Shown piece by piece: positions 34,404 to 56,144 of a stretch of DNA of 64,000 nt. Positions within the stretch are counted from its first letter, which is position 1; every line of letters starts with the position of its first letter. The translations under genes and the position numbers were made by a program. The notes under the pieces were generated by a model. The model ran no database searches, had not been told where the DNA came from, and worked only from the letters and a program-made list of their open reading frames with translations. Source of the DNA: an uncultured Lachnospiraceae bacterium (GTDB lineage: Bacteria > Bacillota > Clostridia > Lachnospirales > Lachnospiraceae). The DNA is taken from NCBI GenBank assembly GCA_905234245.1, contig CAJOGN010000026.1, positions 1-64,000 on the forward strand, in the 5' to 3' direction.

Positions 34404-36644
34404 TTATAATTCATAATAATCGATATTCTCTTTTAGCAATGGCGTTATCTCTACTCCGCTCTTAGTCATACTGTCATATAACGCCTTCAGCCTCTTATAG
34501 CTCTTGGCATTATTAACATTGAAGCGATGAATTGCTTTAGTAAACATTGGACTGTCTTCTAGCTTACTTCTAATATCCTTCGAAAATGGACAATATGTAA
34601 ATACAATTTCTCTGACGAATTTGTTAAGTCTGAATCCACCCTTTGACTCGTATTTTATCCAGTTATAATAGTCCTTGGCAAATACTTCTCTAAAGCTATT
34701 CTTAGACCTTACAAGTGAACTCTTAATCTGGTCCTTAGCATCCTGTGACAATTCATGATTCTTCTTATAGAACTGAAGATAATCATAATAATCACTTGTA
34801 AGAGAATGCTCTCTTATATCATTCCATCTTGGTCCCTGAATCTTACGACACAGCTCCCATCTGTATCTGGCAGTAAGAATTGTAATCTCATCTGCTATAT
34901 CACAGGTTGCGAATATCGGCAGCATAAATCTGGCCGGAGTATCATTCTTAACACTTGCCGTCTCCTGCCACATCATTCCCTTAGAACCACAATTAGGCAT
35001 AAGAATAAAGTCTGGAAGAATCTCACTCATTAATGCTTCATTCTTAATAGCATCAGGAAGATTATTATAGAAAACTGGTCTATAATATGCCGAGAAATCA
35101 ATACTTCTTATTCCGTTAACAGCCTCGTATATCTTATTCCTGCTTACAAGCATATTCGTAGGGTCATTAAAGAGGTCATTATCATTCATAATAGCATTAA
35201 AGCTACTAATATTGCCATAAGTCAACCTGTTAACCGTCTTGAACATGTTGTCTATCTCGAAGGAAACTCTTTCTTCTGGTTTGTTCTTAATCCTGTCTAT
35301 CTCTTCCTTCTTGATATTTCCTTGTTTATACTCCTCAATTAAGTAATGCTCAAAATCAAAGTCAAATTCATTCTTAGACGGTTCTCTGTCACCACGATAT
35401 ATGGCCTTAAGCCAGTTGAATATTGTAAATACATGGTCGGAACTAACAAGCTCCATATGATTAGTTATACTAAATAATCCATTAATCTTATCTTCTTCTA
35501 AGAAAGCACCATCCACATATCCAAAGTTAAGAAACATCTCAACTGTTGCAGGCAGATTTCTGTCATTTACGGCTCGCAAGAAGCATTTCTTATATATATC
35601 ATAGAAATCATTATTAATCTGTTTCCTAAGATTGTTAGCTTCCTTGTCTCGCTGAATCTTAGTATAGCACTTAGAATAATCAGAAAATCTCTTAATATAC
35701 TCCTTCTTAGAATCACTAAGAAAGCCTGCGTAATCAAGAATGAATTCTAAGTCTGAGCTAGGACCATCCTCCTCCACACTCTCTTCTTCTGGAACAAATT
35801 GCTTAGCATCACTATATTCTTCTTTACATCTATCTATTAACTTTGAATCATATATGCCAAGATTAGTTGCAAACCCAAGAAGGCCTTCTATGGTTTGCTC
35901 AAGTTCCTCCGTATCAAGATTAGAGCGCTTATAGAAAGCCATAAGCGCAATGTAGCCATGAAATATATCCCTGTTCCTGTCACTTATAAGATGATCTCTG
36001 TTATAGCCATAGAACTCTATCATCTGAGATATTCCCCGGGCCACACGATGCATCTGCAAGGACGCCTCCATTATTGCTCCTAGTGAAAGCTTATCATCAG
36101 ACGTATATAGCTTCATATACTCATTTGCATGATTATTAACAATACTATCTAAGCTATCAAGCTCCCAATCACTAAGAGTATGTGTAACATTAAGTGGTTG
36201 GAACGAAGACAAATCCGGTCCGCTGGAATATTCGAATCTATTCTTAATTACAAGAGACTGATATTCCTGATACACCTTGTCCACATATACAGAGAACTTA
36301 TTAGCGTTCTTATATAGCCTGTCATAGACCTTGAATTGTTGAAATCTCTGGCTTATGGCAGTCTTAAGAAACAGGGTTCTCATCTTAGCTTCCTTCTCTA
36401 AGAAATGCTTAAGGTCTGACACACTTCGACATGTGAACATGATAAATGTGCAATCCGTCTTGGCAATGTAATCACAGATAAAGAAATCCTGCTCTAGCAT
36501 CCCAATAATAGAATTAACGCCAAGCTTAGTCTCAACAAAATCGTTCTTCTGTATTACTTCGCCTTCCTGGATAATATACCATTCCTTTACAGGGTCATTC
36601 TTTTTTGCTAATACCTGTCCCTTTTTAAGTCCAATTATTTCCAT
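34404..36644 (-). CDS. Large protein with N-terminal cyclic-nucleotide-binding-like (CRP/FNR jelly roll) domain
   Basis: N-terminus [49 protein letters not shown] resembles a cNMP-binding fold; the remaining ~640 aa not recognised, predicted helical. Confidence 0.65.
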
Positions 36645-36653
36645 TATTCTTAC

Positions 36654-37286
36654 CTAACTTACATTTTTGTATTTATTAAGACCGCAAATCTTATCAACAG
36701 AATCAATAATCTCTAGAATCTCAGGAACATAATAATGATGCTCTCTCATAAGTCTGTCTATCTCGTCTCTCTCACTCTTAACAGCCTTAGTATTCTCTTC
36801 CATTCTGTCCCTTACTTTAGAACGCCTCTCCACAAGATTATGCCTAATCTCAATTCGCTCATCCTTATTAACAAGGGCACTTGTCTGTGTTAACCATATC
36901 TTACAATCATATAGCCCTGCCTGCTTTAGAAGCCTGATTAATCGACCTGTAAAATACTCTAAGTCTTCGTTGTTCTTTTCAAATTTCTCCTTTTCCTTAA
37001 CAGCCTCTAAGTATTGTTCCCATACATAGAGTAGCTTATAGGAGCTTTCTACATCGTATTTGTCAGCAACATAATCAACCGCCTTAGTAACGTTGACATA
37101 CTTCATTCTAACAACATTAAGAAGGGATATGGTATTATTCAGCTTCTTTTTGTCTTTTCGCATATCTCTTGACAAATTAGACATAAACACAAAAAGAACC
37201 CCAACTGCAATAGCTGTTACAGCAAAGAGAATCATCCTGTATAATCCCACATCTGTCTTGGTAAACTTCTCAATAATAAAAGACAA
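36654..37286 (-). CDS. Single-TM coiled-coil protein, unknown function
   Basis: N-terminal TM MILFAVTAIAVGVLFVFM followed by charged helices; in line with the DUF5716/DUF5717 cluster. Confidence 0.7.
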   Translation of the reverse strand: MSFIIEKFTKTDVGLYRMILFAVTAIAVGVLFVFMSNLSRDMRKDKKKLNNTISLLNVVRMKYVNVTKAVDYVADKYDVESSYKLLYVWEQYLEAVKEKEKFEKNNEDLEYFTGRLIRLLKQAGLYDCKIWLTQTSALVNKDERIEIRHNLVERRSKVRDRMEENTKAVKSERDEIDRLMREHHYYVPEILEIIDSVDKICGLNKYKNVS

Positions 37287-37306
37287 TACTAAGAAGGAAG
37301 CAAATG

Positions 37307-37819
37307 CTACTGCAACATCTTAGAGCGATTGCTTTCATTAATCTCCATCTCAACTAAGCTCTTCTGACCTTCTAAGTCATTCATTTCCTTCTTAATCTTC
37401 GCCTGATACCTTTCATTCTCCTGCATTCTACTAATAATACCAGGCATATCCTCCTGCTCTTGTTCCATAAGAACAAATTGCTCATCAGTAATTTTCTTCG
37501 AGCTCTCAAGATAAGCAGTCTTAGCCCTGTCTGACTCTAATATATTAGCTGCAGCATTTCTTACTTCGTTATATCGCTCTTCAGGCAAATTATCGATTAT
37601 TTGAATATCATCAAGGTACTTCGTTACAAGCTTATATTCCTTCTTCTCTGCTTTAATCTCTTTTGTCGTTGCAATAATTTGCTCACAAGAATCAAGGATA
37701 TAGTGCTCAAGCTTCTTAGGGTCATCCCACGCATCTATATCCTGTATCTCCTTGGTAACCTTGGCAAAGGCTTCATCAAGCTCTTGTTCTTTTTTCTTCT
37801 TCCTGCCAAAAAATCTCAT
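37307..37819 (-). CDS. Soluble coiled-coil protein, unknown function
   Basis: KKEQELDEAFAKVTKEIQDIDAWDDPKKLEHYILDSCEQI...; Lys/Glu-rich heptads. Confidence 0.7.
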   Translation of the reverse strand: MRFFGRKKKKEQELDEAFAKVTKEIQDIDAWDDPKKLEHYILDSCEQIIATTKEIKAEKKEYKLVTKYLDDIQIIDNLPEERYNEVRNAAANILESDRAKTAYLESSKKITDEQFVLMEQEQEDMPGIISRMQENERYQAKIKKEMNDLEGQKSLVEMEINESNRSKMLQ

Positions 37820-37830
37820 ATACTATCCCA

Positions 37831-38661
37831 CTATATATTACACAACTGATTATATTCCTGTTTCCATCTATTAATTATTGCTCCAAGCTGATTCTTATAT
37901 GACTTTTCTTCATAGAAATCATCCCTCATCTTATCAAGACGGGTAGAAAAATTCTTAACATCAGCACTTGTACTTGTATCTGTAACAATTTTCTTAATCT
38001 TAGCCGCTAAATCCTCTGGTACAAAATATTTTGCAACCTGCATATTGAACCCATCTTCATCTCTCATACATCTATAAGTACAAAGCATGGCTTCTAAGGA
38101 TATCTTCTTACGATTAAGCTGATATGCATATTCAAAGCATACACTTGCCTCATTGAAAAAGAATAATCTTGAATAGCAAACTGCAAGATTATGCCATATA
38201 TCTCCAAGAAATTCCTTAGATATTTCCTTCTTATCGGCCCTGTCTAATATATTCTCATATTCATATATTGCATCAACAATATTGCCCTTATCAAGCAACC
38301 TGTCAGCCCTGATTTTACTGCATTCTATTGGCGATTTATTCTCAAATGAGCTAATTATCTCAACAACATTTCTTATCTCATCACCAGGAAGATAGTCGCA
38401 CATATTAAGAAGGGTCTCAATAAATACATGAAGTGGCTTCTCTTCATCAAGAATGGTAGTTAAGGCTTTCTCTTCATCCTTACCGATTTCTCTTCCAATC
38501 CAGCCACACAGCTCATAACAAGCGAACTCTGTATTAATCAGATATGCGTTATGTGCAACATAATAACACAATTCTTCCAAAGAATATATATTAAGTGATA
38601 CATCTTCTATATAATATGGAACAGCCGCAATTGGCTTCTTACATAGAATTAATTCTCCCAT
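37831..38661 (-). CDS. TPR-like helical-repeat protein, unknown function
   Basis: GNIVDAIYEYENILDRADKKEISKEFLGDIWHNLAVCYSRLFFFNEASVCFEYAYQLNRK is TPR-like. Confidence 0.7.
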   Translation of the reverse strand: MGELILCKKPIAAVPYYIEDVSLNIYSLEELCYYVAHNAYLINTEFACYELCGWIGREIGKDEEKALTTILDEEKPLHVFIETLLNMCDYLPGDEIRNVVEIISSFENKSPIECSKIRADRLLDKGNIVDAIYEYENILDRADKKEISKEFLGDIWHNLAVCYSRLFFFNEASVCFEYAYQLNRKKISLEAMLCTYRCMRDEDGFNMQVAKYFVPEDLAAKIKKIVTDTSTSADVKNFSTRLDKMRDDFYEEKSYKNQLGAIINRWKQEYNQLCNI

Positions 38662-38698
38662 TATAGTCTCCTTATACTATATATCTAAGATACTATCT

Positions 38699-38764
38699 AT
38701 GTCTGATTAAAATATCAACACGCTCATAAAGAAAATCGCTTAGTTGATATTTCTAATCAGACAT
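38699..38764 (-). repeat. Intra-cluster long hairpin
   Basis: ATGTCTGATTAAAATATCAA (38699-38718) versus reverse complement of TTGATATTTCTAATCAGACAT (38744-38764): about 20/21 with one indel, 25-nt loop. Confidence 0.75.
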
Positions 38765-38768
38765 ATTG

Positions 38769-40007
38769 TTATACTAGTGATATTCTATGCTCCCATGTCT
38801 TATTAGAACTAGGAACAATCTCTCCAAAGCCAAGGTCTGATATAGTAACAACAGCTTCAATATCAGATGTAGGCTTCGCACTAATTCGAAGTCTTGTAGT
38901 TCTGTTATCTCTCTTAGGCAGGTCGGTAAGCTCTAGAATCTCCACCTTGGCATCTCTGCTGTCAGGCTTCTGAATCCAGATTTCTATCTCACCAGAACCG
39001 TCTAGAATAACTTCACATTCTCCATGAGCCTCATACCAGCTATCTCCTGCATTAAGAAGTGTTAGATACTCCATTATTCTCTTATCTACCACCTTAAGAG
39101 ACAGATTCATCTTAAGCTCATTGTCTCCTATATATACGAATGGCCAGTCCTTAGCCCCATCCTTAACAGCACCTGCATAACAAGCTCCACGAGAATACAT
39201 ATCCTTGCCAGCAAATACCTTGCGATTATGGCATAGTTTCTGAAGTGATACCTTAAGCCAATCACCATCAAATCCATCTCCTAATAGATACACAGCAGAT
39301 ATTATCTTACCTGCAAAAACTCTCTCAATAATCTCTTCAAATTCAAGGTCTGGATTGTCTCCTAATCTACCATGCACTCCATCCTGAAGATATACTATCT
39401 GAGGAGTTGTTCTAAGATTCCTTGACAAATAATAATGCTTAAGCTCACTTCCTGTATAATCGAACAATACTACATCATGAAGGAAGCACTCTGGTCTCTG
39501 ATTCAATGTGTAATAATAAAATGATTCCTTAAAATCAATAACCATGAGCTTATCTCTGGTAACACCAAGCTCACTTACAATATAAGCAAATGTCTCAACC
39601 ACCTGAACATCCAGACTCTCAACAGCAATAACCAGCTTAAGAAGCCTTCGGTTAGCATAAAAATAACCAGGCATATTAAGAAGCTTCTTAATATATATGA
39701 GAAGTAAATCCCTAGCCTTCAATCTCTCATTCTCTATAAGAATATCTTCATTCGCATACGCCTTAGGGAGTATATCTTCTATGGCCAAGGCATTGCCAAG
39801 CTTAACCTGAGTCTTAGCCTCTTCTCCAAAAAACCACTGTCCTACAGCTCTTCTCTTAGCTAGAAATGTAGGAATTTGACAATGATTAGCACCCATTACA
39901 GTACTAATAGTTTCTGGTGAATCCATATTTATTTGATAATAACTTACACATGTGTAGCTTTCGCGTAATTCAATTCCGAAATATACACCTTTAGAATTAT
40001 CCTGCAA
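38769..40007 (-). CDS. DUF5716-like protein with degenerate Hsp70/actin-fold
   Basis: GVYFGIELRESYTCVSYY aligns with GIDLGTTNSCV of DnaK; C-terminal SAVYLLGDGFDGDWLKVSLQKLCHNRKVFAGKDMYSRGACYAGA resembles the adenosine motif. Confidence 0.7.
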   Translation of the reverse strand: MQDNSKGVYFGIELRESYTCVSYYQINMDSPETISTVMGANHCQIPTFLAKRRAVGQWFFGEEAKTQVKLGNALAIEDILPKAYANEDILIENERLKARDLLLIYIKKLLNMPGYFYANRRLLKLVIAVESLDVQVVETFAYIVSELGVTRDKLMVIDFKESFYYYTLNQRPECFLHDVVLFDYTGSELKHYYLSRNLRTTPQIVYLQDGVHGRLGDNPDLEFEEIIERVFAGKIISAVYLLGDGFDGDWLKVSLQKLCHNRKVFAGKDMYSRGACYAGAVKDGAKDWPFVYIGDNELKMNLSLKVVDKRIMEYLTLLNAGDSWYEAHGECEVILDGSGEIEIWIQKPDSRDAKVEILELTDLPKRDNRTTRLRISAKPTSDIEAVVTISDLGFGEIVPSSNKTWEHRISLV

Positions 40008-40034
40008 TTTGTCACCTCTACATCACTTACATAT

Positions 40035-43000
40035 CTATACTCTGGCAAATAATTGCTTAGTCACATAATCTAGTCCCTGATACTCCTTCATCTCCTCGAG
40101 CAAATCCTTCTCCTCATTATAGAGAAGGTCTGATTGCATCTTATTGATTCTGTCATATCTGCTATTGCCATCATTAATAATGTCATTATATACAAGTACA
40201 TCCTTCTTAAGTACATCCTCTTCATCAAGCCTATGTACCTCGTAGTAGATATTATCGCCGAAGAATAATACGAATTGCTTTACATATATTCCTGGATACA
40301 TCTCAAGCATCTCTTCAAACTGAATATCATCCTCGTTCTTCTTGTATATAATATTGATTCTCTCATTAGCATTTCCATGATACTCAGCAAACTGCTTATC
40401 ATAGAGATGATATTTAATAATCAACTGCCTGTCCATATTCTTGAAAAATGAGAAATATACATTCTTAACAACATACTCTCTAACAAGACTGTCAAGTATA
40501 TTAAGTTCATTCTCCTTAAGATTATCCATGAAGCACAAATGCTTCATAAGGGCAATCTTACAAGCATCATTCAACTTATCAGAACGATTATATTGCCTGA
40601 ATATGAACGAAGCATCGAACTCATCTAAATCATCAATGGCTTCATTAATGTATTTGTTAGCAAAATATGTTAGGACCGCCTCTACTAACATCTTGTTATA
40701 ATCAGATGATACATAGGATTTAAATATGTCATGATAAGCATCACTAATATCCTCGCTATAGAACATCTGAACTAATATTCTGTCTTCTAGCTTATGAGTA
40801 TCAATGTTATGCTTTACCCCTTCTTTCCATAGCATTATCATCTTATCATTAGGGCCAACATATTCTTCACATAGGAAATTACATACATCAGGGTCTAATT
40901 CTTCAGAACCTATTATGCTAGCACATAGGGATACGAAAAAGGATGAAGTAGTCTCCTCTACATCTTCTTTAATCATATAACTACATAATTTATTAATGTA
41001 CTTTTTCTCAACATAGGAACCATTATATGTACTTACTATATAATATGCTCTGTCGTAGCTCTCAGTTGATATAAATAAATCAATTATATATGAAAGGACT
41101 TCTGCATCTATCCTGTCAAAGGATACCTCTTCGCACAAGTGCCGCTCTATCATATCCTCTCTTCCATGCTTTTGTAAGAAATATATAAGCAAAGGATAAA
41201 GCTTAGCTTTATAGTCTGATGATATAGCCTTAGAAGAAATAAATGTCTCAACACAATGCAAATCCTCAATCTTAAGGGTCTCATCATCCTTGCCCCTAAG
41301 TATTGCAGGGAGAGAAGAATCCTTAAGCTCATCAAAGAATCGAATGACATAAGGCATAGATTCAGGTGATAGCTTCTTAAGATTATCTACCAAAGCATCG
41401 CTCTTAAGCAGGAACTCATACATGTAATCACCTGCAGAAGAATGTAATACTCCCTTCTTATCTTCTAAGAATATACAGAAATTCTTAGCAAAAATCGGAA
41501 CATAACATACATTATTCCTTACAGGTGCAATCACCGGATTCTCTAACTGCTCTGAAACAACTAAAACTCTTGTAATATCATCTCTTGCAACAGAGATTCT
41601 TGCTGTATGCAATAGCGGCGCAATACCCGCTGCCACATCCTCATTAATAATTCCATTATCTAATACATCCTGATAAATTATGGCAAGGGAATCGTCAATT
41701 CGTCCATATTGCATTTGTTCTATTGCAAATAATTCAATTGTGCGCAAGTATTGCTGATACAAGCTAGAGAAGTCATCCTTATGCAATACAACATTACTAT
41801 ATACAATAGCCTTCTTATCGTATGACATATTGCTTTGGTATTTGAAATACATTAAAAGTACCTGTGGCAGATTAACAAGATGCTCACCTTCTAGGCACAT
41901 AAGATATGCTTCATATACCCCTGTAATCCTCATCTCCTTATAGAGACATAGCTCATACCATCTTAGGAACTTTTCTCCATAAGAATTAGTACGCATCAGA
42001 TATCCAACAATAATCTCTAATGCACTATTGGTTGGATTAGCCTCATAAGCAGCACATGCTATCTTATATAATCTCTCATCATAAGTACTACATACATTAA
42101 GCAATGCCATGAATTGATCACTAATATCCTCTGTAAAGGCGTTATGTCTTCTTATCCAATTAAGAATCTTGATAACACACGGAGAAATATCTTTAATTAG
42201 ATACGGGTCCTGTCTATATATAGCATAGGCTTCAACATACAGATATGGTGTATCATATCCGTTATTTAACCACTGTGTTATGTCCTTAAGCTTCCTTGAA
42301 TTATTATTGCTATATTCGTTCCGCAAGAACAGTAGGAACCAGAACACACGAACATCATCTGGGTGACTTCTAAAAATCACCTCAATCTCATTAGTAAGTC
42401 TGTCTACATAACTTGGCTCCGGCTCTATTAAAGTGCATAGATACAGTAGATATGCCCACTTAACACTCTTCTTATCGCTAATATCCCTCTTAATCTTCTG
42501 GATAATCCATAAAGCTTCCTGCTTCTGTCCATTTGCAATATATGCATGAGCCTTCATAAGCTCATAGAACTCCACATCAGCTCCACATTTGTCATAGGAA
42601 GGCTCTATCCCCTCTTCCATAGCATATCTGATGTCTGTAATAAATGTATCTATTAGCTGTATACTTTTCTCAGCCCACTGTCCAGTAGTTATATGACGAA
42701 GTCTGTATTCCTCATAATTATAAAGGAATTCAACCTTACGTCTCTTCTTATCCTGGTAAGAAAAATCAACATAGGTGTCCTCACCCTCTAATCTTGCAGT
42801 AATCAAGAACTCCTTATGCTGATTGATTGTATCAAAAGAAATCTTGGCAAGATTAGTACCCTTATGCATACGATTCTTGTGAATATAATAATCAAAATGC
42901 AGCTTAGAGCCCAAGAAATAATCAGAATCTATATGCTCCTTCTCAATAGTAACAAAATCAGCATCAATTGATACATCAATCTCAACATTGCCCCATGTCG

Positions 43001-43652
43001 ACTTGGTAATTACAATCTCTTCCTTCTGGTTCTCGCAAATGTCATTGTATTCAGCTGATTCCTTGTCTAAGGTAATATCTATTCTGTCCTTTAGCTTGCA
43101 GGCAACAAGGAATTCTTCTAGATTATTAAGGCTTGGCACACTTCGCCTATATCCAAGATACAGAAGTCTCTTCTCCACATCTTCATCATCTATAATATCT
43201 ATAAATGCATCAGTATGGAAAATGTTATTAGCTTCGATGAAGTTCTCCTGGCAGAGCCTTCCAAAATCATCTAGGGAATTAATCTCTCCAATTGAAGACT
43301 TAATAGTCTTACGCACAAATGTAATCTTAATAGGAATCTCAAGAGTAGAACCATTGCCCACAACAATAAAGCAACCTTCTAATATATCATTTTTCTTAAA
43401 GTTGCTATGCTTAAGGGAATATTTAATTGTACTGCGAACTCCATCAAACTGATAATCTCTAGTAATAATGTATGGGTTAGTAGAATATATAACTCCTCTA
43501 ATGGATTGGTCATCTTCTCCGAATATATCAAATGAGCCTTCTAGCTTCGCTCCCACATCTAAAGTAATATCTATTTTATCCACAGAGCTTGCAATATTAA
43601 TTTGTCGAGAATCGAACTGTCCTTCAGACAATCGATATATCTTCTTACGCAA
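40035..43652 (-). CDS. DUF5717-like protein, 1205 aa (N-terminal beta-sandwich, long helical-repeat body)
   Basis: Long ORF next to the DUF5716 gene; N-terminal beta-rich segment and repeated helices. DUF name assigned from memory of co-occurrence, not a search. Confidence 0.65.
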   Translation of the reverse strand: MRKKIYRLSEGQFDSRQINIASSVDKIDITLDVGAKLEGSFDIFGEDDQSIRGVIYSTNPYIITRDYQFDGVRSTIKYSLKHSNFKKNDILEGCFIVVGNGSTLEIPIKITFVRKTIKSSIGEINSLDDFGRLCQENFIEANNIFHTDAFIDIIDDEDVEKRLLYLGYRRSVPSLNNLEEFLVACKLKDRIDITLDKESAEYNDICENQKEEIVITKSTWGNVEIDVSIDADFVTIEKEHIDSDYFLGSKLHFDYYIHKNRMHKGTNLAKISFDTINQHKEFLITARLEGEDTYVDFSYQDKKRRKVEFLYNYEEYRLRHITTGQWAEKSIQLIDTFITDIRYAMEEGIEPSYDKCGADVEFYELMKAHAYIANGQKQEALWIIQKIKRDISDKKSVKWAYLLYLCTLIEPEPSYVDRLTNEIEVIFRSHPDDVRVFWFLLFLRNEYSNNNSRKLKDITQWLNNGYDTPYLYVEAYAIYRQDPYLIKDISPCVIKILNWIRRHNAFTEDISDQFMALLNVCSTYDERLYKIACAAYEANPTNSALEIIVGYLMRTNSYGEKFLRWYELCLYKEMRITGVYEAYLMCLEGEHLVNLPQVLLMYFKYQSNMSYDKKAIVYSNVVLHKDDFSSLYQQYLRTIELFAIEQMQYGRIDDSLAIIYQDVLDNGIINEDVAAGIAPLLHTARISVARDDITRVLVVSEQLENPVIAPVRNNVCYVPIFAKNFCIFLEDKKGVLHSSAGDYMYEFLLKSDALVDNLKKLSPESMPYVIRFFDELKDSSLPAILRGKDDETLKIEDLHCVETFISSKAISSDYKAKLYPLLIYFLQKHGREDMIERHLCEEVSFDRIDAEVLSYIIDLFISTESYDRAYYIVSTYNGSYVEKKYINKLCSYMIKEDVEETTSSFFVSLCASIIGSEELDPDVCNFLCEEYVGPNDKMIMLWKEGVKHNIDTHKLEDRILVQMFYSEDISDAYHDIFKSYVSSDYNKMLVEAVLTYFANKYINEAIDDLDEFDASFIFRQYNRSDKLNDACKIALMKHLCFMDNLKENELNILDSLVREYVVKNVYFSFFKNMDRQLIIKYHLYDKQFAEYHGNANERINIIYKKNEDDIQFEEMLEMYPGIYVKQFVLFFGDNIYYEVHRLDEEDVLKKDVLVYNDIINDGNSRYDRINKMQSDLLYNEEKDLLEEMKEYQGLDYVTKQLFARV

Positions 43653-43698
43653 AACTTGCTCCCACCTTTATATCTATGTATTATCTATACTTGATTTT

Positions 43699-43728
43699 TT
43701 GACATTTTCACATATAATGAATTATAAA
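43699..43728 (+). promoter_or_regulatory. Possible sigma-A promoter for the aminotransferase gene
   Basis: TTGACA (43699-43704) followed after about 17-18 nt by TTATAA/TATAAA in an AT-rich divergent intergenic region. Confidence 0.35.
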
Positions 43729-43820
43729 CTATTTGCATAGTTTTTACAATAAACTTATCCATATATTGTGACTCTTTGCAAGTTAATGCACATTATATTG
43801 AAAAAGAGAGGTAAAATGAG

Positions 43821-44909
43821 TTGAAGAACGATTATTATTTTCATGGAAGCGATATAGAAAAAATCAAAGAAAAATATAAGATAAAAAATGAAGAAATCAT
43901 TAACTTCGCAGCTAACGTTAATCCATTAGGCATTTCACCAAGGCTAAAATCAGAACTGTCTAATCACATGGACATAATCACAACATACCCTGACAGGAAT
44001 TATACCAGTCTTAAAAACTCTATAGCTGACTATCTTGGCACGAATACAGAGAATATCTTAGTAGGTAATGGAACTTCTGAACTTATATCATTATTTATTG
44101 AGATAATTAACCCTAAGAAAGCCATGATAATTGGTCCAACATATTCAGAATATGAGAGAAAGGTCACCTTAATGGGTGGAAATGCATATTATTTCCCTCT
44201 TCACGAGGATGAGGACTTCAAGCTGGAGGCTGATTGTCTAATTGACAAGCTCGACAGAAGCATTGATATGCTAATAATGTGCAACCCTAATAACCCAACA
44301 TCTTCCTGTGTGGACCTTGTAACAATCAGAAAAATATTAGATGCTTGTAAGGAGAATCATATATACGTTCTCATTGATGAAACCTACATAGAATTCGTAA
44401 CTTCAATTGAGGCCTATTCTGCAGTATCTCTATCAGAATACTACAATAATGTTATTATTCTTCGAAGCACATCGAAATTCTTTGCATGTCCAGGACTGCG
44501 TCTTGGTTATGCAATAATAGGCAATACCGACTTAATGTCACAGATTAACCAAAGCAAGAATCCCTGGATGATTAACTCTATTGCAGCCAAAGCAGGTGAA
44601 ATCATGTTCGCTGATAGTAAATACATCAAGGATACCTCGGACTTAATTAACAAGGAAAGAGACTTTATGTATAACGCATTCCTAGCAACAGATGGTTTCA
44701 AACCATATAAGCCTTATGCCAACTTCATGCTTGTTAAGATTAACAAGCCGAATATCACCAGTAAGGATATATTCGAAGGAGCGATTAATGAAAGGATGCT
44801 GATTCGCGACTGCTCCACCTTCCCCTTCTTAAGCAATGAATACTTCCGCTTCTGCTTCATGGAGCATGAAGACAATCTAAAATTATTAGACTGTATTAGG
44901 AATATATAA
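43821..44909 (+). CDS. PLP-dependent aminotransferase, CobD/HisC-like (TTG start)
   Basis: NFAANVNPLGISPRLKSEL, CNPNNPTSSC, VLIDETYIEF, RSTSKFFACPGLRLGYAI (PLP lysine). Confidence 0.85.
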   Translation: MKNDYYFHGSDIEKIKEKYKIKNEEIINFAANVNPLGISPRLKSELSNHMDIITTYPDRNYTSLKNSIADYLGTNTENILVGNGTSELISLFIEIINPKKAMIIGPTYSEYERKVTLMGGNAYYFPLHEDEDFKLEADCLIDKLDRSIDMLIMCNPNNPTSSCVDLVTIRKILDACKENHIYVLIDETYIEFVTSIEAYSAVSLSEYYNNVIILRSTSKFFACPGLRLGYAIIGNTDLMSQINQSKNPWMINSIAAKAGEIMFADSKYIKDTSDLINKERDFMYNAFLATDGFKPYKPYANFMLVKINKPNITSKDIFEGAINERMLIRDCSTFPFLSNEYFRFCFMEHEDNLKLLDCIRNI

Positions 44910-45185: not shown

Positions 45186-45953
45186 CTAGAACTGCGCTCC
45201 AAGATTATCCATGGTGTCTATTATGATTACGCAATCCTGAAGGATATTCTTAATTAGAAGCTTCATAATATCTTCAGGAATCTCTACGCTTCCATTAGTA
45301 TATGGTCTGTCAGAGCTCAAACACTTAATGAATATCTGCGAACCTTTACCAATTTCTTCTTCAGGATTAAAGTCAATTCCAATACAGAATTGATCTTCAT
45401 ACTCTAATTCATATAAATGCTCACTAGTCTGTTCATCTAGGTCATTATACTGCTTTATATTAACCAAAGCATTAAATGGTATTTCACCATCTGTCTCACC
45501 AGTCCAATACATAGCATCTATTACTGATGTATATGGCATTTTGCAACCAGGACTTGGCGCAATACCACAGTTTCTCTTAATGCGATATCTTCCAATAGGA
45601 GTCTTATCACTACCTTCTTTATGCTCTTCGTCTGGAACCATTCCATTCTTACCAATTACACCTGGTGTTGAAAGTATCTGCTTCCAGTTACCTTCCTTGT
45701 CCTTATTATGCAATGACACATAAGCAGTAGATTTATCCATCCCCATTCCAGCAACAATTAATAGCTGATTCTTATCTTCTATGTCAGGCAGCTTCGTAAC
45801 CCAATCAGGAGAATCCACCTCGTCTTGTATTGATGAATGAAGATATACCTCAGCTTGCTGCTTCTCAGGATCATTCTCTCTAACGCCATCACATCCAACA
45901 AGCATTATACACATTAGAGCACATATTGCTATTACTAATACACGCTTTTTCAT
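45186..45953 (-). CDS. YkuD (L,D-transpeptidase)-like lipoprotein, catalytic Cys/His replaced
   Basis: Lipobox-like signal IMLVGCDG; IFIKCLSSDRPYTNGSVEIPE where the paralogue has IFLHCLGPQKPFTGGCVAVPE. Confidence 0.8.
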   Translation of the reverse strand: MKKRVLVIAICALMCIMLVGCDGVRENDPEKQQAEVYLHSSIQDEVDSPDWVTKLPDIEDKNQLLIVAGMGMDKSTAYVSLHNKDKEGNWKQILSTPGVIGKNGMVPDEEHKEGSDKTPIGRYRIKRNCGIAPSPGCKMPYTSVIDAMYWTGETDGEIPFNALVNIKQYNDLDEQTSEHLYELEYEDQFCIGIDFNPEEEIGKGSQIFIKCLSSDRPYTNGSVEIPEDIMKLLIKNILQDCVIIIDTMDNLGAQF

Positions 45954-45985
45954 AACTCAAACCCATAAACCCACAATATAAAATA

Positions 45986-46762
45986 CTAGAACTCTGCCTT
46001 AAGGCTCTCCATTGTATCTATTACTACTACACAATCCTTATCAACGTTCTTCATTATTAATTGCATAATATTCTCTGGAACAGCTACACATCCGCCAGTA
46101 AATGGCTTTTGCGGTCCAAGACAATGCAAGAATATTGCAGAGCCTCTTTTTGGTGTTCCTTCTTCATTAAAGCTTATATTCAAGCAATACTGATATTGAT
46201 ATTCGTAATCAATTATATGTTCACTATCATCCTTATTAAGATTAGGAACTTGCTTGATATCTACCATCTGATTATATTGGTTATTAACATCACCTGACCA
46301 ATATGTATCATCATTAACCTTGGTATATTCTATTGCACATCCTATATCATCAGCTATTCCAAATGCTTTATTAAAATGATACGTTCCAATTGGTGTCTGA
46401 TTACATCCTTCAACATGGGCTGCATCAGTACATAGTCCATTCTTACCAACAAAAGCAGGGGAAGATAGAATCTGCTTCCAATTACCACTATCATCCTTCT
46501 TATGCATAGACACATAAGCAGTAGTCTTATCCATTCCCATTGCCGCAACAACAAATAGCTGATTTGCATTAGCTGCAGCAGGAAGATTTTTCACCCAATC
46601 TGGCGAATCAACCTCATGCTGTATAGAAGAATGAATGTCAACCTTTGTCTTAGCATCAACCTTGCTAAGATCTGGCTCACTATCACCACCACAGCCTACT
46701 AAGGCTAATCCCATAACAGCAATCAAGGACACTGCAATAATGACCTTCTTGTTCATATATCT
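45986..46762 (-). CDS. YkuD (L,D-transpeptidase)-like lipoprotein, catalytic motif intact
   Basis: Lipobox-like ALVGCGG; FLHCLGPQKPFTGGCVAVPE matches the His...[S/T]xGC pattern. Start at MNKKVIIAVS preferred. Confidence 0.82.
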   Translation of the reverse strand, partial: RYMNKKVIIAVSLIAVMGLALVGCGGDSEPDLSKVDAKTKVDIHSSIQHEVDSPDWVKNLPAAANANQLFVVAAMGMDKTTAYVSMHKKDDSGNWKQILSSPAFVGKNGLCTDAAHVEGCNQTPIGTYHFNKAFGIADDIGCAIEYTKVNDDTYWSGDVNNQYNQMVDIKQVPNLNKDDSEHIIDYEYQYQYCLNISFNEEGTPKRGSAIFLHCLGPQKPFTGGCVAVPENIMQLIMKNVDKDCVVVIDTMESLKAEF

Positions 46763-46825
46763 ACCCCACTTTCTGCCCAAATGTATATTTTAATAATACA
46801 TTGTAATTATGCCAAAAACAAGCAA

Positions 46826-54212: not shown

Positions 54213-56144
54213 TTACTCGTCATGAATAATCTGCTCAAGTGATTCTTTAACACCCTCAACAACATTATATACTTCTTCAATATGACCTTCTGTTGCTTCA
54301 GCTGCCTCAGCAAGTCCCTTAACATTATTAAGAATATCAGTAACTATAGCATTAATATTAGCAGCCTGAGACTTAACATTCTCCATCTCCTGACGGATAT
54401 CCTGGTTATTATCATTAGAATCAGTAGCTGTAGCATTAGAATTCTCAGCCAGGTTCTTAATCTCATCTGCAACAACGGCAAATCCCTTACCTGCTTCACC
54501 TGCACGAGCAGCCTCAATAGAAGCGTTAAGCGCAAGCAAGTTAGTCTGAGCTGAAATACTAATAACAGCATCATTGTTAGAATCAAGCTTCTCAATCAAT
54601 CCACCGATACTAACAAGAGCTTCCTGCATCTTATCAGAATATCCACGCATCTCATCAATAGAAACCATAATAGAATCAATTTGTTCGCTATCATTCTTGG
54701 CAGATTGTTCAATATTATCAATAGAACCTATCATCTGCTTGAAGTCTTCATCCATCTGATTAATAACTTCTTCTGTCTTATTATTAGACGCTTCTCTTTG
54801 TAATTGAATCTCTTCTAGAAGCTTCTCATTATCTTCTCTTTCCTTCTGAGCAACATCCTTAACATAATGAACACAATTCTCCTTACAGTTGAAGCCATTA
54901 TGAATTGCATATACCATTTCAGTACATGTATCATATCCACAACCACTACAATTGATGCTACGCTTCTCCTCTGTATCCTTCATCATCTCATTAAAGAGTG
55001 CCTCTTTCTCAGCCTCTGTCGGGATACTGTATTTAACGAGATTGCTCTTATCATTGTATTTTCTGATAAAATCATGATAATCGAGCTTGGCAAATTGCTT
55101 ATTAAGAGCCGCAAGTCTCTTCTCAGGCGTCGTCTGCTTAGCCCAAGGCGACTTCTTGTTGGTATTTTTACTCTCTTCTTCTATAATTAACGCATTATAG
55201 TAATTGTTTTCCTTGTCATTATTCTTCTCTTCTATACCGGTTCCGTAGAGACATCCTCCGCTACAGTTAAGAACATCTATTAAGAAATAAGGAAGCCCGT
55301 TCTTAACATCATCTTTATTCTTCTCCAGGAAGCGATATAGATTACCTTCACCTCTTATATCACGAATCTTCTTGTCATCGCCACATAGCCACTTAACATT
55401 CTCACCTAGTCCACCCGGCATAGGATAGAACGAACCAAGACCATATTCAATCTCATCCGAACAAGGCTGACCATTAGGAATAGGATTCTCACTAAGATAC
55501 TTCATAAGATGGTCAAATGTAATATTGTATGACACAATTCCGTCGGTATTAGGGTCTTCTATCTCATTCTTCTTAGCGATACAAGGGCTGATGAACGCAA
55601 GCTTATCAGTCACATTCATATACTTCTTAGCATATATAGCACCACACATCATGGGCGAATGAATAGGCATAAGCTTAGGAAGAAGCTCAGGTGTATATCT
55701 CTCTATATAACCTACTGCCGCAGGACATGGCTGAGATATTGCTCCTGTATAATTATGCTCAGAAATGTACTGAATATAAGCCCATGTTGTTATATCAGCA
55801 CCAAACGAAACACTTATAATACGATTAACACCAGCCGCCTTAAGCTGTCCTAAAACACTCTCATATTCCTTATAATAGTTAGCCTTGAATGCAGGTGCCA
55901 ATAGAAGCGATATCTTCTCACCCTTCTTAAGGTCTTCGAAGAAGCGTTCAGTATCATCTTCAAATACTCTTGCATTATGCTCACAAGCATCGATACAAGC
56001 ACCACAACCTACACATCGGTCAGGATCTACTTCGATACGATTCTTGCCGTCAACAATTTCAGATACGTTAGCTCCAATACAACTGCATGCTCTGATACAT
56101 TTGTTACAGCCAACGCAATTATCATTCGTTTTTACTACTGACAT
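54213..56144 (-). CDS. [FeFe]-hydrogenase-like / 4Fe-4S / methyl-accepting chemotaxis fusion (soluble sensor)
   Basis: Two 4Fe-4S motifs ([22 protein letters not shown]); hydrogenase motifs [28 protein letters not shown]; extra Cys cluster [12 protein letters not shown] hairpin [40 protein letters not shown]. Confidence 0.93.

Follow-up and report, generated by a model that had tools for sequence, protein, structure and literature searches.

Among the housekeeping genes of an uncultured Lachnospiraceae bacterium lies a block of six co-directional open reading frames, and the question that it raises is whether their products, which have no described function, work together, and if so as what. 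The DNA analysed here (64,000 nucleotides, positions 1 to 64,000 of contig CAJOGN010000026.1, assembly GCA_905234245.1; referred to below as the window) belongs, to judge from its named relatives, to a rumen genus of this family near Pseudobutyrivibrio. A preliminary description had proposed six genes encoding a scaffold or signalling assembly at the membrane, in which an Hsp70-type protein, helical-repeat scaffolds and a membrane anchor would be joined by a sensor with a CRP domain. Comparison of the block with its homologues, combined with structure prediction, leads to a different picture: the genes at 36654-43652 probably encode a membrane-tethered pseudo-chaperone complex, near-universal in the Lachnospiraceae and reduced from a larger Hsp70 machine.

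Organization of the gene block

The block and its immediate surroundings comprise the following features.

43821-44909, plus strand: CobD/HisC-like aminotransferase gene, the divergent upstream neighbour
43653-43820, no strand assigned: divergent intergenic region, presumed operon promoter (TTGTAA-17-TATAAT match)
40035-43652, minus strand: DUF5717 protein, 1205 aa (Pfam, AlphaFold model, Foldseek; first gene of the operon in 90 of 90 family loci)
38769-40007, minus strand: DUF5716 protein, 412 aa, a predicted pseudo-Hsp70 (Pfam, model, PDB matches, tree, residues, profile comparison)
38672-38750, minus strand: palindromic repeat in the gap that separates DUF5716 from TPR (47 matches in its own genome, fold z = -5.5)
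37831-38661, minus strand: TPR protein, 276 aa (third gene in family loci; fused to DUF5716 in locus L173)
36654-37819, minus strand: gene for a membrane coiled-coil protein (396 aa in the nearest relative; TM helices halfway along the chain), present here as two ORFs
34404-36644, minus strand: cNMP-domain protein, 746 aa, a co-directional neighbour outside the conserved core

The six minus-strand ORFs are real, with the coordinates first reported for them, and are separated by gaps of 9, 20, 11, 107 and 27 nt (counted from the end of 34404-36644 up to 40035-43652). They amount, however, to five genes, a four-gene core, of which one member is broken here, and one neighbour. ORFs 37307-37819 (170 aa) and 36654-37286 (210 aa) are the N- and C-terminal halves of a single gene, since relatives encode one protein of ~395 aa in their place, and since genome G004, which in this region is 99-100% identical to the window at the protein level and encodes a 396-aa protein, carries 25 nt that are missing from the window at 37317/37318, where the frame is shifted within the first TM helix. 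The absence of these 25 nt may be a genuine mutation, or else an error of assembly. The idea of six independent genes was rejected. This coiled-coil gene with its TM helices supplies the membrane-anchored member that had been predicted. It is the next gene after the TPR gene in 60 of 86 family loci (about 70%), and its product may be non-obligatory, since it went undetected beside the TPR gene in the other 30% or so.

The palindromic repeat, which sits in the 107-nt gap and is predicted to fold strongly, belongs to a dispersed family, many of its matches in the genome being partial. No tRNA, Rfam family or conserved RNA element was found in the window. Upstream of the block, the promoter-like match lies at 43749-43721 on the minus strand, in a region where matches to the consensus are near chance (62 found vs 51.6 expected). 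The aminotransferase gene beyond it is a conserved neighbour: 46 of the 89 family loci have it in divergent orientation, and homologues adjoin the locus outside the Lachnospiraceae, in further families of the order, too. Further along the window, two neighbouring paralogous lipoprotein-like genes at 45186-46780 display weak L,D-transpeptidase (YkuD) similarity, and the protein encoded at 54213-56144 combines a methyl-accepting chemotaxis signalling domain with 4Fe-4S motifs and an iron-only hydrogenase large-subunit domain, an architecture that suggests a redox or hydrogen sensor.

The DUF5717 and TPR proteins

The first product of the block is a clear member of the DUF5717 family, matching the N- and C-terminal Pfam entries (PF18984 and PF18983) at E 2e-215 and 1e-71, with 718 and 241.9 bits against a cut-off of 25. 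Its AlphaFold model (pLDDT 83) displays two Ig-like beta-sandwich domains of the MSP/PapD-like type near residues 20-124 and 193-288, followed by a long alpha-solenoid, into which a beta domain is inserted, and finally a C-terminal beta domain. In Foldseek searches the Ig-like part retrieved MSP/PapD-like domains of the ciliary central pair and of HYDIN, while the solenoid retrieved Ski3 and repeat proteins of the spliceosomal and UNC-45 types. Whole-chain TM-scores were low; the model therefore supports a scaffold architecture and not a specific homology, and DUF5717 is presumed to act as a scaffold. The TPR match in the 276-aa protein is weak and below the Pfam cut-off. Together with the modelled solenoid of DUF5717, this protein bears out the expectation that the block encodes helical-repeat scaffolds.

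Conservation of the core

If the products of these genes do work together, their association should extend beyond one genome, and the preliminary description had made its case for a conserved multiprotein system of undescribed function depend on such co-occurrence. It is present: the DUF5717, DUF5716 and TPR genes succeed one another in this order in all of the 90 Lachnospiraceae loci examined, which are not fully independent in that part of them represent several species of one genus, and 117 of the 120 genera sampled from the family carry DUF5717. As first scored, DUF5716 followed DUF5717 in 89 of the 90 loci and the TPR gene came next in 88; the exceptions are L049, in which the ORF was masked by an antisense call, and L173, in which DUF5716 and the TPR protein are fused into one gene of 709 aa. 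This fusion is evidence for a physical association of the two proteins. The genes are tightly spaced in the family, with median gaps of 15 nt between DUF5717 and DUF5716 and of 6 nt between DUF5716 and TPR, and each genome carries one copy of the core, with synteny kept. In the three genomes devoid of DUF5717, DUF5716 is also absent.

Such constancy of order indicates that the arrangement is not due to chance. That unrelated genes merely lie side by side, as the housekeeping flanks and the lack of a shared enzyme pathway could be taken to imply, is scarcely credible, being refuted by synteny in 90 of 90 loci across highly diverged genera, by the gene fusion, and by the larger form of the locus in other families.

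At broader taxonomic scales, DUF5717 was detected in 75 of the 146 genomes that represent the order. A sample of 292 genomes of the class yielded 12 matches among members of the window's family and a single marginal one (E 1e-3) from beyond the order, while 399 genomes of the phylum yielded five matches, all in the window's family; in these class- and phylum-wide samples, DUF5717 was thus not convincingly found outside the order. Literature searches on DUF5716 and DUF5717 returned nothing relevant: in the library searched, DUF5716 is named in one paper, whose topic is unrelated, and DUF5717 in none, and no paper describing the gene set was found. A search on Hsp70-vWA-GrpE loci in Clostridia was equally fruitless.

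A larger locus elsewhere in the order

Outside the Lachnospiraceae, other families of the order have a larger version of this locus. It encodes three Hsp70s whose catalytic residues are intact, a protein with a GrpE domain, a pseudo-Hsp70, the TPR protein and the DUF5717 scaffold. In locus L059 the order is DUF5717; Hsp70a (559 aa); a 644-aa protein with a C-terminal GrpE domain (3e-13); Hsp70b (523 aa), which matches both DUF5716_C and HSP70; Hsp70c (551 aa); Hsp70d (692 aa), which matches HSP70 and carries a C-terminal vWA domain; and the TPR protein (387 aa). The vWA-bearing Hsp70 (L059:3495-5573), in which this domain, with a DTTGS motif, replaces the lid, is kept in the larger loci. In several families the whole series is followed by the TM coiled-coil gene. 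No J-domain protein was seen in the locus in a search confined to HPD tripeptides. A separate membrane coiled-coil gene, of ~435 aa, precedes DUF5717 in several families (L065:16828-18150, and also L060 and L070-L072); when examined with PADLOC, its product gave weak ZorA matches, confined to the coiled-coil part.

The remaining parts of the larger locus are absent from the Lachnospiraceae. The GrpE-domain gene is full length only outside the window's family. The weak GrpE matches within the family fall in the ~70-residue GrpE core, and the one in the window's genome is the canonical GrpE, encoded beside DnaK. No second DnaK/GrpE set was found in this genome, which holds the one canonical GrpE, one DnaK, and two weaker, partial matches of MreB size.

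DUF5716 as a pseudo-Hsp70

The second protein of the core matches DUF5716_C (PF18980) at E 5e-101, with 337.9 bits against a curated cut-off of 34.7; its assignment to this family, like that of its neighbour to DUF5717, was thus correctly foreseen, both families being of unknown function. Its AlphaFold model (pLDDT 88, pTM 0.83) also bears out the Hsp70-type fold that had been proposed: of the 50 best matches in the PDB, nearly all belong to the Hsp70 family or are complexes with a member of it, and Foldseek relates the model to DnaK/Hsp70 at E 4e-19. According to this model, DUF5716 comprises a nucleotide-binding domain and an eight-strand SBD-beta; both the lid and the catalytic residues are missing, as sequence comparison shows. 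At the level of sequence, no direct PF00012 match was obtained for the window's protein, while paralogue b of the larger locus matches this profile at 1e-17, and a DUF5716 profile built from Lachnospiraceae members only retrieved no Hsp70 from the PDB sequences. The link between DUF5716 and Hsp70 runs by way of the predicted fold and of paralogue b.

The positions equivalent to T11, T12, K70, E171, T199 and D201 of DnaK are occupied in the window's DUF5716 by E, S, L, F, E and K, respectively, and these losses are common to ~97 relatives. In paralogues a, c and d, T11, T12, K70, E171, D194, T199 and D201 are invariant (100%). In paralogue b, K70 is found in none of 13 sequences, nor is it among the residues seen at this position in DUF5716, and T199, D201 and E171 are mostly replaced in both groups. 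The lid is missing in DUF5716 as well as in paralogues a, b and c; the chain continues beyond the lid's start for a median of 13 residues in DUF5716 vs 146 in DnaK. With catalytic residues and lid gone, DUF5716 should not run an ATP-driven chaperone cycle, and the statement that this copy of the block holds no recognisable active enzyme still stands.

In a tree of 66 sequences, in which some long branches were flagged, all DUF5716 proteins of the Lachnospiraceae fall into a single clade (100/100). This clade lies inside the b group, separate from DnaK and from paralogues a, c and d, and its sister is a paralogue from family f4 (100/99). That family retains all four paralogues; in its genome G021, Hsp70 paralogues of the larger locus were recognised by position and by the tree. 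Profile comparison gave a full-length match between DUF5716 and paralogue b at E 5e-48, followed by c at 2e-27, the others being far weaker. A loop of the form D-x-G-F-G-[ED] near the C-terminus, near-invariant in DUF5716 as D-L-G-F-G-E, is present in 92 of 107 DUF5716 proteins. Of the 12 b paralogues, 10 share it, whereas paralogues a and d lack it throughout. On these sequence comparisons, DUF5716 is identified as the orthologue of paralogue b, the pseudo-Hsp70 of the larger locus. Values of dN/dS of 0.03-0.06, for which the synonymous distances against locus L116 are near saturation, show purifying selection.

Alternative readings of the gene set

Hsp70 and actin share a fold, and the most serious alternative is that of a cytoskeleton-like assembly, in which a protein of the actin/Hsp70 fold and a solenoid form a membrane filament or a cortical scaffold that serves cell shape or division, and in which not even the larger form would act as a chaperone. 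The actin-superfamily fold of DUF5716, the Ig-like domains of MSP/HYDIN type and the solenoid of DUF5717, and the membrane coiled coil would all suit such a role, and comparable sets have been read as regulated cytoskeleton-like assemblies (Kaur et al. 2020, PMC7159879). The larger locus, however, with its GrpE domain and its SBD-beta-bearing Hsp70s that retain their catalytic residues, points to a chaperone cycle, and DUF5716 itself keeps the eight-strand SBD-beta. We thus consider a purely cytoskeletal assembly unlikely.

The nearest described theme is that of the GAP1-N2 GTPase systems, in which HSP70, GrpE and a beta-sandwich/TPR protein are grouped in membrane-proximal sets, sometimes with a second, shortened Hsp70 (Kaur et al. 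2020, PMC7159879). This likeness evokes the possibility of an anti-phage or other conflict system related to such neighbourhoods, which we regard as improbable. The resemblance lies in the combination of Hsp70, GrpE and beta-sandwich/TPR proteins; on inspection of the gene clusters listed for the loci compared, no GAP1 was recognised and no recurrent gene noticed for the GTPase that defines those systems. In addition, GAP1-N2 systems and defence islands are patchy, whereas the set described here is near-universal in one family, with a single copy per genome. A defence system was also rejected as a candidate, PADLOC having given no match for the window proteins searched.

Even less probable, by a little, is the membrane signalling assembly of the preliminary description, with the 746-aa CRP-domain protein as its sensor. 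The gene for this protein lies 9 nt downstream of the core, and members of its family adjoin the core in two genera, that of the window and one other. They are missing, however, from most core loci: the family occurs in 32 of 120 sampled Lachnospiraceae genera, the loci inspected are mostly unrelated to the core and have variable neighbours, genome G175 has the family and lacks DUF5717, and the cNMP match itself is weak and below the Pfam cut-off. The CRP-domain protein was thus rejected as a core member, being of a separate family that is usually encoded elsewhere, and what stands of the six-member assembly is the DUF5717-DUF5716-TPR core with the membrane protein. As a main theme, signalling gives way to the chaperone machinery (Hsp70s and GrpE) to which the homologous loci point. 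The 746-aa family has a strikingly conserved C-terminal half, which occurs alone as a 461-aa protein in L086 and L119; a profile search detected no PDB relative of the family.

A probable membrane-tethered pseudo-chaperone complex

The composition of the set and its history are well supported by these comparisons; for the mechanism of the pseudo-chaperone complex, we infer the following. DUF5717 would provide a large scaffold of Ig-like domains and solenoid, on which, together with the TPR protein, DUF5716 would serve as the Hsp70-like subunit, binding clients or partners without an ATP cycle. The TPR protein would be the partner of DUF5716, and in most genomes the coiled-coil membrane protein would anchor the assembly, itself predicted, on the membrane's inner face. 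In the larger form, ATP-driven Hsp70s and the GrpE-domain exchange factor would act on the same scaffold. The ancestor may have been this larger, dedicated Hsp70 machine, of which other families of the order still possess the full set; in the Lachnospiraceae its ATP-driven parts would have been lost, and the reduced complex would either do without ATP or recruit DnaK. That the change was one of loss and not of gain is suggested by one tree, which includes some long branches.

A parallel to a subunit of this kind is Ssz1, the atypical Hsp70 of the yeast ribosome-associated complex, whose SBD is truncated and which runs no productive ATPase cycle. Structures containing Ssz1 are among the PDB matches of DUF5716; the comparison concerns the mode of action, with no claim of orthology, and unlike in the yeast system, there is no Zuotin-like partner here, nor any sign of ribosome binding. 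In comparison with Hsp70/DnaK and GrpE, the likeness lies in the fold predicted for DUF5716 and in the three intact Hsp70s and GrpE domain of the larger locus. By analogy with Ssz1, the most likely function would be the binding or positioning of particular clients at the membrane; the complex would do this independently of ATP, or else as a co-chaperone that passes them on to DnaK. To the full proposition, that a core trait of the family is a membrane-tethered pseudo-Hsp70 complex derived from a stripped multi-Hsp70/GrpE/vWA machine and working as an ATP-independent client binder or a special DnaK co-chaperone, we give slightly less than even credence. To our knowledge, such a use of the Hsp70 fold has not been described in bacteria.

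If this reading is correct, it would represent a bacterial mode of employing the Hsp70 fold without the ATP-driven parts. To the existing Pfam entries the present analysis adds the Hsp70 origin, the larger locus and the set of partners. Two DUF families acquire an origin, as a pseudo-Hsp70 and its scaffold, a list of partners and a testable model. The order holds intact, intermediate and reduced forms of the locus, which would constitute a natural series of an Hsp70 system that loses its ATP cycle yet stays useful, and the existence of cultured Pseudobutyrivibrio and Butyrivibrio makes tests feasible. The Lachnospiraceae are among the dominant bacteria of the gut and rumen, and nearly all of their sampled genera carry this set, for which no function had been described.
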